From: Actinomycetota bacterium | GTDB lineage: Bacteria > Actinomycetota > Acidimicrobiia > Acidimicrobiales > CAIXPF01 | Direction: 5' to 3' | Length of the DNA stretch: 44,631 bases | Assembly (NCBI GenBank): GCA_016870475.1 | Contig: VGBO01000001.1 | Coordinates: 67,515-112,145, forward strand | Shown here: positions 30,205 to 37,824 of the stretch, in pieces | Position numbering within the stretch: position 1 is the stretch's first letter | How the letters are laid out: each line of letters starts with the position of its first letter | Made by a program: the position numbers and the translations under genes | Notes under the pieces: generated by a model | The model's input: the letters and a program-made list of their open reading frames with translations, nothing else | Told to the model about the DNA's origin: nothing | The model's database searches: none

Positions 30205-30233
30205 CACCGCCGCCGGTCACCCTGGCGGCGGTG
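30205..30233. terminator. 10-bp perfect hairpin between convergent stops
   Basis: CACCGCCGCC at 30205-30214 and GGCGGCGGTG at 30224-30233 form a perfect 10-bp stem with a 9-nt loop that contains the stop codon of the helicase gene. It lies just after the molybdopterin subunit stop. There is no T-run, so it is a candidate bidirectional terminator or mRNA 3'-end stabiliser. Confidence 0.5.
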
Positions 30234-32142
30234 TCGCGAGCGAACGCAGGAATTCCTCCGCCTCGGCGCGGTGCCGCGTCCGCCGGAACGGCGGGAGCGC
30301 CCGGATTACGTCCCAGCGATAGCGCGCCGACCCGAGCCGAGGGTCGAGCACGGCGACCACGCCACGGTCGTCCGCCGAACGGACGAGCCGACCGGCCGCC
30401 TGCGCAAGCAGCGTCGCCGCCCGGGCGACGTCGATCGTGCGGAACGCCGCCGCACCGGCCCGCTCGCGCCGCGCCTGGAGCAGCGGGTCGTCGGGGCGGG
30501 GGAACGGCAGGCGATCGACGACGACGAGCGAGAGCGCGGCGCCGGGCACGTCGATGCCCTGGAACAGCCCCATGGTCCCGAACAGACACGACGCCTCCTC
30601 GGCCCGGAACGCCTCGATCAACCGGGGCAACGGCTGCTCACCCTGTGCCAGCACGGTGAAGGGCAGGCGAGGCCGAAGCGCCTCGACCGCATCGGTCAAC
30701 GCTCGCCACGACGTGAAAAGCGCCAGCGTCCGGCCACCGGCGGCGGTGATCAACGCGGCCAGCTCGTCGTGCACCGCCGCACGGAAGCCCTCCGAGCGCG
30801 GATCGGGGAGGTGCATGGCGCAGTAGAGGAGCGCGTTCTGCTCGTAGTCGAACGGGCTGCCGACGTCGAGGGGCTCCACGCCGGCGGGCAGCCCCACCCG
30901 GGCGGCGAAGTGCGGCGGGATCGTGGCGGAGGTCAGCACGGCCGTCCGTCGCGCCCACACCGTGGCGCCGAGCACCGGGCCGATCTCGACCGGCGCAGCC
31001 ACCACCCGGGCGTCGTCACGCCCGTCCGGCACCCATGCGACCCAGTCGCCGTCGAGCCCGGCGAAGGTGTCGAGGTCACCGACGAGGGACTGCACGATCC
31101 GCTGGGCCCGTGCCCGCCGCTGATCGGCGTCCTCGACGTCGGTGGAGATCGACCGCAGCGACTCGAGCGCCCGCTCGAGACGTCCCCGGAGCAAGGTGAC
31201 GGCGTCGACCACCGCGACGGGCAGGGGCAGCGACAGCCGCTCCCCCGCATGGGGCGCCAGCGAACCCACGAGCGTCTCCCCCGCCCGCACCAGGTCGAGG
31301 GGCAGGTCCCGGTCCGCGATCACCGCGCGGACCCTGCGGGCCACCACCTCGACCCGGCCGGCGCTCAGCTCGAACCCCAGCGCCGAGGACAGCAGGTCCT
31401 CGAGCTGGTGGGCCTCGTCGAACACGACCACGTCGTGGGTGGGAAGGACGCGTTCCTCCGACGCGAGGTGCGCGGCGTACAGCGCCAGGTTCACGACGAC
31501 CACGTCGGCGGCTTCGGCTGCGGCACGCGCCTGCTCGGCGAAGCAGTCGAGACCCCTCGGACACCGGGCCGCACCGGGACACTCCTCCCCCGACACGCTC
31601 ACCGCCGCCCACGCCCGCGGTGACGGTTCCACGGGCAACTCGGCCCGGTCGCCGGTCGTCGTGCCCTCCGCCCACGCCGCCAATGCCTCGAGTTCGGGCG
31701 CGATGCTCCCGCCAACGTCGAACTCGGCCTGCCCGAGCCCGGCCGCCACCTCGTCGAGACGCTGCCGGCACACGTAGTTCGACCGACCCTTGAGCACCGC
31801 GGCGCGCACCGGGACCCCGAGCGGCTCGAGTCGATCGGCGAGCGCCGGGAGGTCGTTCTCGGCGAGCTGGTCCTGCAATGCCTTCGACGCCGTCGCCACC
31901 ACGACCCGTCGCTCCCGGCCCACGGCGTCGAGCACGGACGGCACCAGGTAGCCGAACGACTTGCCCGTACCCGTACCCGCCTGCACGACGAGGTGGCCGC
32001 CCGCCGCAAGCACGTCCGCGACGGCCCGGGCCATGCGGAGCTGTCCCGGTCGCTCCTCGCCGCCGCCGGGTACTCCGGCGACCACCGCCCGCAACGCCGC
32101 CTCCACCTCGGGCCCGGGGTGGAGCACGTCGGCCGATTGCAC
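30217..32142 (-). CDS. dinG: DinG/XPD-like ATP-dependent DNA helicase
   Basis: Superfamily 2 helicase with an iron-sulfur domain, 641 residues, 5'-3' polarity in characterised members; resolves R-loops and other structures in DNA repair. Walker A is AGTGTGKS at 55-62 and the DEAH box is at 242-245 (VVFDEAHQ). Four cysteines between them, C125, C188, C194 and C200, form the [4Fe-4S] pattern of DinG/XPD. Motifs V/VI are in LFQGIDVPG and QAAGRLVRS. The GTG at 32142 is chosen because TACGGT lies 6 nt upstream; longer in-frame starts would run into the divergent oxidoreductase promoter. Divergent from the F420 oxidoreductase with 66 bp between starts. Confidence 0.93.
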   Translation of the reverse strand: MQSADVLHPGPEVEAALRAVVAGVPGGGEERPGQLRMARAVADVLAAGGHLVVQAGTGTGKSFGYLVPSVLDAVGRERRVVVATASKALQDQLAENDLPALADRLEPLGVPVRAAVLKGRSNYVCRQRLDEVAAGLGQAEFDVGGSIAPELEALAAWAEGTTTGDRAELPVEPSPRAWAAVSVSGEECPGAARCPRGLDCFAEQARAAAEAADVVVVNLALYAAHLASEERVLPTHDVVVFDEAHQLEDLLSSALGFELSAGRVEVVARRVRAVIADRDLPLDLVRAGETLVGSLAPHAGERLSLPLPVAVVDAVTLLRGRLERALESLRSISTDVEDADQRRARAQRIVQSLVGDLDTFAGLDGDWVAWVPDGRDDARVVAAPVEIGPVLGATVWARRTAVLTSATIPPHFAARVGLPAGVEPLDVGSPFDYEQNALLYCAMHLPDPRSEGFRAAVHDELAALITAAGGRTLALFTSWRALTDAVEALRPRLPFTVLAQGEQPLPRLIEAFRAEEASCLFGTMGLFQGIDVPGAALSLVVVDRLPFPRPDDPLLQARRERAGAAAFRTIDVARAATLLAQAAGRLVRSADDRGVVAVLDPRLGSARYRWDVIRALPPFRRTRHRAEAEEFLRSLATPPPG

Positions 32143-32148
32143 CCGGCA

Positions 32149-32154
32149 ACCGTA
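32149..32154 (-). promoter_or_regulatory. -10 box TACGGT for dinG
   Basis: Minus-strand TACGGT, 6 nt before the GTG at 32142. Confidence 0.55.
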
Positions 32155-32196
32155 CCGACCGACGGCGTTCCGCACGCGCGATGCGCCCCGACCGAC

Positions 32197-32202
32197 TAGG
32201 AA
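32197..32202 (+). promoter_or_regulatory. imperfect -10 box TAGGAA for LLM oxidoreductase
   Basis: TAGGAA ends 6 nt before the ATG at 32209. The position is right but the final T is missing. Confidence 0.35.
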
Positions 32203-32208
32203 GACGCC

Positions 32209-33123
32209 ATGGACTGGGGACTGCACCTACCGCACCTGGGTCGTCAGGCGACCCGCGAGAACCTGATCGCGTTCGCGACGACGGCCGACCGGCTCGGTGT
32301 CCACTCGCTGTGGACCTCCGATCACGTCGCCTGGCCCCGGGAGGTCGAGTCCAAGTACCCCTACACCGAGGACGGTTCCTTCCCCGGTGGCTACGACATG
32401 CCGTGGCTCGACCCGCTCGGCGTGCTGTTCATGGTCGCCGGGTGCACCGAGCACGCCCGACTCGGCACGACCGTCCTGATCCTCGGCTACCGACCGCCGC
32501 TGCTGACGGCGAAGGCGTGGGCCTCGCTCGACGTCGTCTCCGGGGGACGGGCCATCGTCGGGGTCGGCGTCGGCTGGATGAAGGAGGAGTTCGACGCCCT
32601 CCAGATGCCCTACGACCATCGCGGCGCACGGGCCGACGAACAGCTCGACGTCTACCGCACCGTCTGGTCGGAGCAGGACCCGTCGTTCTCCGGTCGGTTC
32701 TACGAGTTCCCCCCGATCGGGTTCAGCCCGCGCCCGTTGCAGGACCCGCTGCCGATCTGGGTCGGCGGCGACTCCGAGCCCGCCTACCGCCGGACCGTGC
32801 GGTACGGCAATGCGTTCCATGCCGCGTTCCAGAAGCGCGACACCGTGGAGAAGGCGTGGGCCCGCGTCCGGGAGCTCGCCGCCGAGGCCGGCCGCGATCC
32901 CGACGAGATCACCCTGTCGATCCGGCTCTACCTCGACCCCGACGCCACCCAGGCGCCCGAGAAGTCGATCGCAGGTTCCGCCCAGCAGATGGCGGACACC
33001 GTGGGGGCCTGGGCCTCCATCGGCGTGACCCACATCCTCCTCGACCCCGTCGCACGGGGCGGCCCGGCCCGGCGCCTCGAGGTGATCGAGGAATTCCTCA
33101 CGGGCGTCGGCGCGCAGGCCTGA
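32209..33123 (+). CDS. LLM-class F420-dependent oxidoreductase
   Basis: Luciferase-like monooxygenase-fold enzyme, 304 residues, TIM barrel; actinobacterial members commonly use F420H2 rather than FMN. The N-terminus is MDWGLHLPHLG. The characteristic segments SLWTSDHVAWP, LGTTVLILGYRPPLLTAKAWASLD, GWMKEEFDALQMPYDHRGARADEQ and PLPIWVGGDSEPAYRR are present. This matches the branch that includes many uncharacterised Rv-type oxidoreductases; the substrate is not known. Cofactor use is inferred from the family. Next to it on the same strand is a TauE/SafE permease with its own -10 box. Confidence 0.88.
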   Translation: MDWGLHLPHLGRQATRENLIAFATTADRLGVHSLWTSDHVAWPREVESKYPYTEDGSFPGGYDMPWLDPLGVLFMVAGCTEHARLGTTVLILGYRPPLLTAKAWASLDVVSGGRAIVGVGVGWMKEEFDALQMPYDHRGARADEQLDVYRTVWSEQDPSFSGRFYEFPPIGFSPRPLQDPLPIWVGGDSEPAYRRTVRYGNAFHAAFQKRDTVEKAWARVRELAAEAGRDPDEITLSIRLYLDPDATQAPEKSIAGSAQQMADTVGAWASIGVTHILLDPVARGGPARRLEVIEEFLTGVGAQA

Positions 33124-34873: not shown

Positions 34874-34915
34874 ATGACAGAAGCACGCGACACCGCCATC
34901 GGGAGCCGGGCGTGA
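34874..34915 (+). CDS. 13-codon upstream ORF overlapping the NYN gene start
   Basis: A short frame, MTEARDTAIGSRA then TGA, starts at an ATG 6 nt after the -10 box. It ends in TGA at 34913-34915, overlapping the GTG start of the NYN-LOTUS gene (34912-34914) as GTGA. The geometry is that of a leaderless leader peptide translationally coupled to the downstream gene. Whether it is translated is inference; it could simply be the 5' UTR. The same stretch holds GGGAG at 34901-34905, 6 nt before the GTG, so the main gene also has its own ribosome binding site. Confidence 0.4.
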   Translation: MTEARDTAIGSRA

Positions 34916-36474
34916 ACGACGACGAGGAACGGATCGCCCTCTTCCTCGACTACGAGAACCTCGCCATCGGCGCCCGCGAGAACCTCGGCGGGATGGCCTT
35001 CGACCTCAAGCCCCTCTCCGACGCGATCGCGGAGCGCGGGCGGGCGATCGTGCGCCGGGCCTACGCCGACTGGCTCAAGTTCGGCGAGGACGGGCGCATG
35101 CTCACCCGCCACCACGTCGAACTCATCGAGATCCCGCAGCGAATGGGCACGATCCGCAAGAACGCCGCCGACATCAAGATGGCGGTCGACGCAATCGAGC
35201 TGGCGTTCGCCCGGCCGTACATCACCACCTACGTGCTCGGCACCGGCGACTCGGACTTCACCCCGCTCGTGCACAAGCTGCGCGAGCTCAACAAGCGGGT
35301 CATCGGCGTCGGCATCGAGTCCTCGACGTCGCTGCTGCTGCCCCCCGCGTGCGACGAGTTCCTCTTCTACGAACGACTCGAAGGCGTGGAGGTGCCGGAA
35401 CGCCGCGCCGGAGCGAGCCGTCGGCGAAGCGGCCGCGGGCGCCGCACCGACGGTGCCGATTCGACCGAGACGGCCGCAGCGAAAGCGGGCGCCGGAACGT
35501 CCGACGACGGCGCGAGCGACGAGGGCGAAGCCTCTCCCGTCGTCGCGCCGGCGTCCATCGGCGACCTCGAGCGATTGCTGGCGCAGACGCTGTCCGGCCT
35601 CGAACGTTCGAGCGGGGGGCACGTACGCGCCTCGGCGCTCAAGCGTGCGGTGCTCCGCAAGGTGTCGACCTTCGACGAGTCGCAGTACGGGTTCCGAGGG
35701 TTCACCGAGCTGCTCCGGAACCTCGCCGACCGGGGCATCGTCGAACTCGTCGACAGCGCCGGGCTCGGTGACCCCGAGGTGCACTTCCCGGCCGAGCAGG
35801 GCCACGACGAGCCGGTGTTCGAACTGCTGCGCCGAGTCGTGGACGAACAGGCGACGCCCGACCGCCCGACGCCGCTGTCGGGACTCAAGAACAAGCTCCG
35901 CCGTCACGACCCGGAGTTCTCCGAGAAGCGGTTCGGGTTCGGCGGGTTCCTGCAGTTCGCGAAGGCCGCCGCAGCGCGCAACGTGATCGAGATGGCGTGG
36001 GACGACGACGCCGACGACTACATGATCCGACCGGTACCCGGCAGCCGGACCGCCGCGCCCGCCGACGTCGCCACCGCGACCGAGACGACAGCGCCGGCGA
36101 CGGTCGAGACCGAGCCGGCCACCGGCGTCGAGGAGACCGCCACCGCGCGGACCCCGGCGCGCCGACGCCGGACGACGACCGCTGCGGCAACCGCAGCGGT
36201 GCCCGAGACGGAGCCGGCGGAGGAGCCACCCGCCGAGGCACCGAAGCGGCGGACGCGCGCGACCCGCGCCACGACCGAGGCGTCGGTCGGTGACACCGGG
36301 GAGGCCGCGCCCGCGGCACCGAAGCGGCGGACGACCCGACGCAGTTCGACCGCTACGCCCGCCGCCGACGGCGAGGCCCCCGCCGATACCGCACCGGCAT
36401 CCGACACCGCGCCGGCTCCCCGGCGACGCACGACTCAGCGCAAGCCCGCGAAGACCGCCGAACCGTCGGCGTAG
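34912..36474 (+). CDS. NYN (PIN-like) RNase-type protein with two OST-HTH/LOTUS domains
   Basis: 520-residue probable RNA-binding or RNA-cleaving protein. The NYN domain covers about 7-155 with the acidic site residues D13 and N16 (FLDYEN), D87 (ADIKM), D93, and D113/D115 (GTGDSDF). A basic/acidic low-complexity linker spans ~163-215. Two OST-HTH/LOTUS domains follow at about 219-293 and 299-373, each with the xYGFRGF or FGFGGF core. The tail from 374 is disordered, rich in Ala/Thr/Pro/Glu, with four basic repeats of the RRRTT type (near 417, 445, 471 and 504). The domain order recalls eukaryotic MARF1-type proteins. The GTG at 34912 has a Shine-Dalgarno sequence and overlaps a 13-codon ORF. 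The 3' end overlaps the MBL gene by 40 bp. Confidence 0.9.
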   Translation: MNDDEERIALFLDYENLAIGARENLGGMAFDLKPLSDAIAERGRAIVRRAYADWLKFGEDGRMLTRHHVELIEIPQRMGTIRKNAADIKMAVDAIELAFARPYITTYVLGTGDSDFTPLVHKLRELNKRVIGVGIESSTSLLLPPACDEFLFYERLEGVEVPERRAGASRRRSGRGRRTDGADSTETAAAKAGAGTSDDGASDEGEASPVVAPASIGDLERLLAQTLSGLERSSGGHVRASALKRAVLRKVSTFDESQYGFRGFTELLRNLADRGIVELVDSAGLGDPEVHFPAEQGHDEPVFELLRRVVDEQATPDRPTPLSGLKNKLRRHDPEFSEKRFGFGGFLQFAKAAAARNVIEMAWDDDADDYMIRPVPGSRTAAPADVATATETTAPATVETEPATGVEETATARTPARRRRTTTAAATAAVPETEPAEEPPAEAPKRRTRATRATTEASVGDTGEAAPAAPKRRTTRRSSTATPAADGEAPADTAPASDTAPAPRRRTTQRKPAKTAEPSA

Positions 36475-37376
36475 CCGAGCTCCACGAGCTCGGTGCGCGG
36501 CGCCCAACGTCCGAGCGCCGAACGGATCGGCGCGACGTCGGTCGCGATCGAGAACCCGGGCAACCAGTCGTCGTGGTGCGACAGGATCACGCGACGCGGG
36601 GAGAGCAACGCGGTCTGGCGGGCGACGAAATCGGCGAGCGATCCCTGCACCGGTTCGCCGTCGACGTTGCCCCGCCCGGCCGCCGCCACGATCGCCACGT
36701 CGGGCCGCAGGTCGCGGACGATGCCCGTCCAGTGACCGGACGTGTCCTGGAACAGGAGCGACCCCTCGGGCGTCTCGAACAGGAACAGCAGCGTGTGCCC
36801 GTCGCCGCGGGGCTGCTGCCCGTCGGCGCGCAGATGCAGGAGCGTCTCCTCACCGAGTCCGCCGATCCACTCGGCGAGCGCGCCGAACCGCTCCCGCCGG
36901 TCCTGATGGGTGACGAAGAGGTCCCCGAGGCACACCTCGTCGGCCGCCGGCATCTCCCGGTGCGACCAGACGCAGGAGTGCAGGCTCGGGTACACGCAGC
37001 AGTCCACCCCGGGGGCGAGGCGCACCCGCTCGCCGCCCGCGACCGGCAGGAGGTTGCCGAGCGGCACGCCGGCGGCCTCGAGCACCCGCACCGTCTCGTG
37101 CGACCCGATCACGGTCGCCCCGGTGCGTTCGACGGTGCGTTCCGCCCCCCACAGGTGGTCGAAGTGCGAGTGCCCGACGACGATCCAGTCACACCGGTCG
37201 ACGTCGTCGGGGCGCACCCGCGGTTGCGGTCCTGCCGCCCCCTCGACCCGGTCGAGGTAAGCGTCGAGGAACACCACCGTGTCGTCGGTCGCCCGCGGTC
37301 CGGGGACCGGGAGCGTGAGCCGGAACGTCGAGCAGCCGAACCAGTCGAGCCGCGCCGTGGAGGTGGAGGCGGCCAT
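36435..37376 (-). CDS. metallo-beta-lactamase-fold hydrolase
   Basis: 313-residue MBL-fold enzyme. The metal motif HSHFDH is at 69-74 (VVGHSHFDHLWG), with further ligand candidates H155-type in LHSCVWSH, D235-type in LFQDTSGHW, and SHHDDW near the C-terminus. It resembles the UlaG/RomA-like branch that hydrolyses phosphodiester, lactone or amide bonds; the substrate is unknown. The ATG at 37376 is preferred as the point where similarity starts (LDWFGCSTFRL); a GAAGGT hexamer lies 7 nt upstream. Its last 40 bp lie antisense to the end of the NYN-LOTUS gene. Divergent from the RidA-like gene with 49 bp between starts. Confidence 0.85.
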   Translation of the reverse strand: MAASTSTARLDWFGCSTFRLTLPVPGPRATDDTVVFLDAYLDRVEGAAGPQPRVRPDDVDRCDWIVVGHSHFDHLWGAERTVERTGATVIGSHETVRVLEAAGVPLGNLLPVAGGERVRLAPGVDCCVYPSLHSCVWSHREMPAADEVCLGDLFVTHQDRRERFGALAEWIGGLGEETLLHLRADGQQPRGDGHTLLFLFETPEGSLLFQDTSGHWTGIVRDLRPDVAIVAAAGRGNVDGEPVQGSLADFVARQTALLSPRRVILSHHDDWLPGFSIATDVAPIRSALGRWAPRTELVELGYADGSAVFAGLR

Positions 37377-37412
37377 GGCCGCCACCTTCCCACACCTCGA
37401 CGTCCCGGCGGG

Positions 37413-37418
37413 TAGCGT
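37413..37418 (+). promoter_or_regulatory. -10 box TAGCGT for RidA-like gene
   Basis: TAGCGT ends 7 nt before the GTG at 37426. Confidence 0.6.
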
Positions 37419-37425
37419 CCGCGCC

Positions 37426-37824
37426 GTGGCCAACCACGTCGTCGCACCCCCCGGCATCGCTCCACCCGCGGCGCGCTACGCGCACGCCGTCGTCTCCGAG
37501 CACGCCGGACGGATCCTGCACACCTCCGGTGTGGTCCCCGCGGCACCGGACGGCACCGTGCCGGACGACGTCGCCTCACAGGCGGCCACGGTCTGGGCGA
37601 CGATCGGTGCACTCCTCGACGACGCCGGGTTCCGACCCGCCGACGTCGTGTCGGTCACGACCTACGTCGTCGACGCCCACGCAGACGAGCTCACCACCGT
37701 CATGGCCGCGCGTGACGCCTTCCTCGACGGCCACCTCGCCGCGTCGACGCTCGTGGTCGTCCCCCGGCTCGCGCAACCGGCATGGAAGCTCGAGATCGCC
37801 GTCGTCGCCGTTCAGGGACGGTAG
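37426..37824 (+). CDS. RidA/YjgF/UK114-family protein without the catalytic Arg
   Basis: 132-residue member of the Rid superfamily; canonical RidA hydrolyses reactive enamines/imines released by PLP enzymes. Family features are the segment GRILHTSGVVPAAPDG near the N-terminus, a central helix QAATVWATIGALLDDAG and the C-terminal LEIAVVAVQGR strand. In RidA the key arginine sits in a PARS motif before the last strands; here the aligned segment is LAAS (A106), so imine deaminase activity of the RidA type is doubtful. The gene probably belongs to another Rid subgroup. The GTG at 37426 is selected by its -10 box. The 3' end overlaps the convergent carboxyltransferase gene by 13 bp. Confidence 0.87.
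   Translation: MANHVVAPPGIAPPAARYAHAVVSEHAGRILHTSGVVPAAPDGTVPDDVASQAATVWATIGALLDDAGFRPADVVSVTTYVVDAHADELTTVMAARDAFLDGHLAASTLVVVPRLAQPAWKLEIAVVAVQGR

Follow-up and report, generated by a model that had tools for sequence, protein, structure and literature searches.

The gene at 34912-36474 on the forward strand of the window (the whole 44,631-nucleotide stretch of DNA analyzed) encodes a chromosomal, stand-alone protein of 520 amino acids in which an NYN nuclease domain is followed by two OST-HTH/LOTUS domains and a long basic tail. With moderate confidence, we consider it most likely to be an endoribonuclease that depends on metal and is guided by its two minimal LOTUS domains. It is a further member of the known bacterial family that joins an LK-nuclease (DUF88/NYN) domain to duplicated OST-HTH, and its layout is not new: Anantharaman, Zhang and Aravind reported in 2010 that DUF88 nucleases of bacteria occur as fusions with one or two copies of OST-HTH, and predicted an RNA-degrading role for them (PMC2848206). 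The long arginine-rich tail is unusual and occurs mainly in the closest relatives of the window protein.

Domain architecture and structural relatives

The reading frame opens with GTG at 34912 and closes with a stop codon at 36472-36474, in the frame given by the initial annotation. The start site agrees with the starts of relatives in the alignment, most of which begin at the same place and show stretches such as DEERIALFL near their N-terminus. Pfam matched the protein to NYN (1.1e-29, residues 7-153) and, over two stretches, to OST-HTH (3.7e-12), and AlphaFold, using the 81-row alignment, returned a confident NYN domain and two winged-helix domains (pLDDT mostly about 90 or above), with pLDDT falling to 38-48 in most of the linker (171-210) and 42-59 in the tail (381-520). 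Each domain passes its Pfam cut-off, and the order of NYN, two OST-HTH/LOTUS units and disordered tail proposed earlier is thus confirmed. The features are as follows.

34912-36474 (+): complete gene, 520 aa, NYN plus two OST-HTH/LOTUS domains plus basic tail (open reading frame, Pfam, alignment)
34930-35370 (+): NYN domain (DUF88/LK-nuclease), residues 7-153, with acidic D13, D87, D113 and D115 (PF01936, 1.1e-29; structure match to 2qip and MARF1 NYN; conservation)
35389-35553 (+): disordered linker, residues 160-214, a basic patch and then acidic (pLDDT 38-48 over 171-210)
35554-35799 (+): first OST-HTH/LOTUS domain, residues 215-296 (Pfam, 28.7 bits alone; match to Tejas 8wxs)
35806-36036 (+): second OST-HTH/LOTUS domain, residues 299-375 (Pfam, 26.1 bits alone; match to TDRD7 3rco)
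36037-36471 (+): disordered Ala/Thr/Pro/Arg tail, residues 376-520, with four basic repeats (pLDDT 42-59 over 381-520)

A genome scan gave 151 relatives. The best 80 were kept and, going by their record titles, are mostly Actinomycetota; Oerskovia flava and Micromonospora chaiyaphumensis are cultured actinomycetes with homologues. The 81 rows or loci counted below are these best 80 of 151 plus the window. An NYN match was present in 81/81 rows and an OST-HTH match in 79/81 at E 0.01 (best 80 of 151 plus the window). The best structure match of the NYN model was VPA0982 (2qip, Z 20.3), the structure used in the 2010 paper, followed by mouse Marf1 NYN (5yaa, Z 18.0, rmsd 2.6 over 146) and human MARF1 NYN (6fdl, Z 17.2), after which the rows fall to Z 9. 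D87, D113 and D115 are identical in all 81 aligned rows and D13 in 80 of them (best 80 of 151 plus the window), the remaining row being N-terminally truncated; the acidic site at D13, D87 and D113 named in the initial annotation is therefore present and conserved, as is D115, with no loss in any aligned row that reaches these positions. The endoribonuclease activity of human MARF1 is stimulated by Mn or Mg, and the active site of the enzyme contains Asp358, 426, 427 and 452 (PMC6294520). Judged by order and spacing, D13, D87 and D113 probably occupy the positions of Asp358, 426 and 452, the spacing of 26 between residues 87 and 113 being the same as that between 426 and 452 in MARF1. By the same spacing, the position of Asp427 holds the non-acidic I88, and D115 is an extra acidic residue here.

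Scored singly, the two OST-HTH units reached 28.7 and 26.1 bits against a Pfam cut-off of 23.8, and the first aligned with the second at an hhalign probability of 97.7. At the place of the OST-HTH motif Ghxph they read GFRGF (260-264) and GFGGF (342-346), but with glycine at the polar position in both copies, and G260 and G342 are kept in 81/81 rows (best 80 of 151 relatives plus the window). Sequence searches of structures by phmmer and by profile gave 2qip as the sole convincing match and none to eukaryotic LOTUS or MARF1 structures; with the LOTUS profile, the OST-HTH structures 2kpm and 2kzv from bacteria came up without significance (E 0.57 and 0.74), and unrelated chains ranked higher. 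Structure comparison was needed for the link to LOTUS domains and MARF1 because only 2qip was convincing by sequence. For a LOTUS-only model (residues 212-376, mean pLDDT 79.9, medium confidence), Foldseek found nothing at an E value of 0.001 or below. When the model was given a second look by VIA, the LOTUS domains of TDRD7, Tejas and TDRD5 ranked first (Z 10.1-10.7), with the first domain matching the Drosophila Tejas LOTUS 8wxs (Z 10.6, rmsd 1.9 over 72) and the second the human TDRD7 LOTUS 3rco (Z 10.7, rmsd 1.9 over 75). Further VIA matches were TDRD5 3s93 (Z 10.1), TDRD7 2lh9 (Z 9.7) and Oskar 5cd7 (Z 8.7), and the bacterial 2kpm and 2kzv (Z 8.6 and 8.2) lay among generic winged helices at Z 8-9. 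Structure prediction, the check put forward with the initial annotation, thus supported two LOTUS folds, with LOTUS structures at the top of the VIA list.

Neither domain in the AlphaFold model carries the extra C-terminal helix of eLOTUS, the Vasa-binding subclass: none lies between the strand at 289-291 and the helix at 300-313, and none follows the second domain past the strand at 369-374. Both domains are therefore predicted to be minimal LOTUS domains, in line with what Jeske et al. inferred for bacterial LOTUS domains (PMC5458760). The same authors detected no RNA binding by the Oskar eLOTUS domain, so it cannot be assumed that all LOTUS domains bind RNA.

The window protein shares with the LK-nuclease and OST-HTH family its N-terminal DUF88/NYN and duplicated C-terminal OST-HTH, and differs from it in the long arginine-rich C-terminal tail, of which the accessible text of PMC2848206 makes no mention. 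The nearest eukaryotic layout is that of plant DNE1 rather than the larger MARF1. Arabidopsis DNE1 likewise consists of an NYN domain and two LOTUS domains, a likeness by layout only, and is tied to decapping and nonsense-mediated decay, partners that would be unexpected in bacteria (PMC10226599). The MARF1-type layout suggested at first stands for the NYN fold (5yaa and 6fdl, above) but not for the whole protein: human and mouse MARF1 (Limkain b1), an endoribonuclease, has in common with the window protein the NYN fold, probably three of the four positions of its acidic cluster, and minimal LOTUS domains, but is larger, with RRMs and eight LOTUS domains, against no RRM match and two OST-HTH units here in Pfam. 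Rae1/YacP of Bacillus subtilis, a bacterial NYN endoribonuclease called a structural relative of the MARF1 NYN (PMC6294520), is absent among the Pfam and NCBIfam matches of the window protein.

The arginine-rich tail

The tail (residues 376-520) has no Pfam match and contains four basic repeats, RRRRTTT at 417, KRRT at 445, KRRTT at 471 and RRRTT at 504, so that the count of four reported earlier is right but the exact RRRTT occurs in only two. As a DNA pattern in any frame, RRRTT is found 58 times on the forward and 56 times on the reverse strand of the whole genome, and by our own arithmetic about 0.01 occurrences would be expected in the + strand of the 435-nt tail, compared with the two seen; composition accounts for part of this excess. 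A tail of this kind lies outside the general family layout: 71/81 rows end within 15 aa of the second LOTUS domain, 3 extend for 16-40 aa and 7 for more than 40 aa (best 80 of 151 plus the window), with a few rows stopping at a contig edge where tails are possibly cut. The short basic patch directly after NYN is common among relatives when linker sequences are compared by eye.

The tail is lineage-restricted. In a quick tree, the window protein and loci L002-L005 form one clade (5/81 rows, best 80 of 151 plus the window; SH-aLRT 99), and all five members carry arginine-rich long tails of 148-308 aa. R/G-rich (RGG-like) boxes such as RRGRGGRGRGRGGR occur in the tails of L002-L005 and are absent from that of the window protein. 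Across 4 of the 6 possible pairs of L002-L005, dN/dS was 0.07-0.23 in the core, which is under purifying selection, versus 0.36-0.42 in the tails, which evolve fast, yet as coding sequence. We rejected the idea that the tail is a chance open frame for L002-L005 on the basis of these tail values and a frame kept through indels (same 4/6 pairs). In the accessible text of the literature on NYN-LOTUS proteins we did not find the tail of this clade described, unlike every other part of the protein.

An RNase E/G gene of the same genome (L134:1402-3189, -) encodes an R/G-rich low-complexity stretch near its N-terminus that recalls the RGG-like boxes of L002-L005. R/G-rich stretches may perhaps be a general habit of RNA enzymes in this genome.

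Neighborhood, distribution and G-quadruplex content

Flanking genes in the window encode a DinG-like helicase, a TauE-type transporter, an acyl-CoA carboxylase subunit and an enoyl-CoA hydratase, a set found again in part in L002, L003 and L005 but not across the family at large. All-against-all comparison of the 81 loci (best 80 of 151 plus the window) found no neighbor common across the family; this agrees with PMC2848206, whose accessible text reports no conserved link between the bacterial versions and known RNA-processing genes. The DinG/XPD-like helicase (Helicase_C_2; 30217-32226, -) is encoded some 2.7 kb upstream on the opposite strand, with no operon link, and L002, L003 and L005 have its cluster as well. 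Some DinG helicases unwind G4. On the downstream side, a convergent gene for a metallo-beta-lactamase fold (36435-37457, -) overlaps the end of the NYN-LOTUS gene at its own stop end by 40 bases (36435-36474). In one clade (for example L061:2825-6979), the NYN-LOTUS gene belongs to a compact cluster, all on one strand, together with genes for an alpha/beta hydrolase, an acyltransferase, an uncharacterized 138-aa protein without a Pfam match and a HAD-like protein; over the 81 loci (best 80 of 151 plus the window) the acyltransferase was counted 10 times, always within 600 bp upstream, and the small protein and the HAD-like protein 17 times each.

The NYN-LOTUS family is strongly conserved and widespread in Actinomycetota. 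Within the phylum sample, 83/198 genomes gave a match at E 0.001, many over NYN only and at low identity. The sample of the order (59 genomes, own and relatives) contained 11 with a match at this threshold: 5 of the 6 genomes of the own family had a strong match (G000 included), and the 53 genomes of other families added 4 strong matches over both halves and 2 weak partial ones. This patchiness points to loss or transfer, and because most genomes sampled from the order showed no match, many of them can do without the gene. Redundancy by NYN paralogues in the own genome was considered and rejected, since a Pfam scan finds a single NYN gene.

The initial annotation had also suggested a possible G4-processing or RNA-quality factor in a very GC-rich genome. 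The window holds 1 G4 motif on the + strand and 8 on the - strand, none within the gene, compared with shuffled means of 2.0 (+, sd 1.3) and 5.0 (-, sd 2.0) over 30 shuffles. A special G4 burden is not supported by this comparison of 9 motifs with about 7, which, coming from one window, is weak evidence. Window GC is 71%; among loci carrying the gene GC runs from 53 to 74%, with 8/81 rows below 60% (best 80 of 151 plus the window). Neither the motif counts nor this range supports a special need in GC-rich genomes, and the link to GC-rich genomes is further undercut by the rarity of the gene in the rest of the order (4/53, above). G-rich or G4 RNA is nevertheless a possible substrate from the literature on LOTUS domains.

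Proposed mechanism and alternatives

By analogy with characterized relatives, from which we infer RNase activity, metal use and LOTUS-RNA binding, the NYN domain would most likely cut single-stranded RNA internally, with a divalent metal predicted to be held by D13, D87, D113 and D115. Selection of the RNA would fall to the two minimal LOTUS domains, probably through stretches that are G-rich or structured, and non-specific RNA affinity or contacts with partners may come from the linker and tail, which are basic and flexible. The binding tests of a 2020 LOTUS paper reportedly took in bacterial LOTUS domains too. Minimal LOTUS domains have been reported to bind G-rich RNA and RNA G-quadruplexes, a property conserved across kingdoms (PMC8331183, PMC12247748), and DNE1 cleaves close to a G-rich motif, YGGWG, without predicted G4s (PMC10226599). 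Both reports speak against the tentative alternative that the LOTUS pair recognizes double-stranded or stem-structured RNA instead, the enzyme trimming or cutting beside folded RNA. Recognition of such RNA is what was first predicted for OST-HTH, after it had been superposed on the winged helix of CDC6 (PMC2848206); winged helices of ORC/CDC6 are also among the high-ranking matches of our models, and the lack of G4 enrichment in the window is consistent with this alternative. Counting against the main reading itself are I88 at the Asp427 position, the undetected RNA binding of the Oskar eLOTUS, window neighbors that are mostly metabolic rather than RNA-processing, and the lack of a match in most of the order's sampled genomes.

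LabA, of the cyanobacterial clock, is an NYN/DUF88-type protein. A LabA-like regulator that binds mostly RNA or protein, with catalysis minor or absent, would fit the regulatory phenotype of LabA (references in PMC4287336), but we find this doubtful for the window protein, as none of the four acidic residues is missing from any row covering them, which is unexpected for a lost active site. The least probable reading we considered is an RNase of defense or toxin type that acts on phage or mobile elements. The gene is patchily present in the order and its product weakly matches PADLOC PDLC01154, a LabA-like NYN nuclease (E 3.3e-4, 18.1 bits); however, its mostly metabolic neighbors are partly common to the nearest relatives, no antitoxin-like partner or defense gene occurs among the neighbors scanned, the core is under purifying selection, and another clade keeps the gene in a conserved cluster with lipid-type genes.

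For the tailed clade, we also put forward, as a rather improbable elaboration, a granule-type enzyme whose arginine-rich tails (with RGG-like boxes in 4/5) would drive RNA-rich condensates in which the LOTUS domains gather G-rich transcripts that are cut there; RNase E/G, with its own R/G-rich stretch, could share one body with the NYN-LOTUS enzyme.

Our search of mostly open-access literature found no experimental study of a bacterial NYN-LOTUS member, and the role of these proteins in the literature searched is so far a prediction. LOTUS domains are mainly known from the germ granules of animals and from RNA decay in plants, and a bacterial origin has been proposed for them (PMC2848206). The tailed clade sets up a natural contrast between enzymes with and without a tail, and its granules, if real, would be a bacterial counterpart of eukaryotic LOTUS granules.
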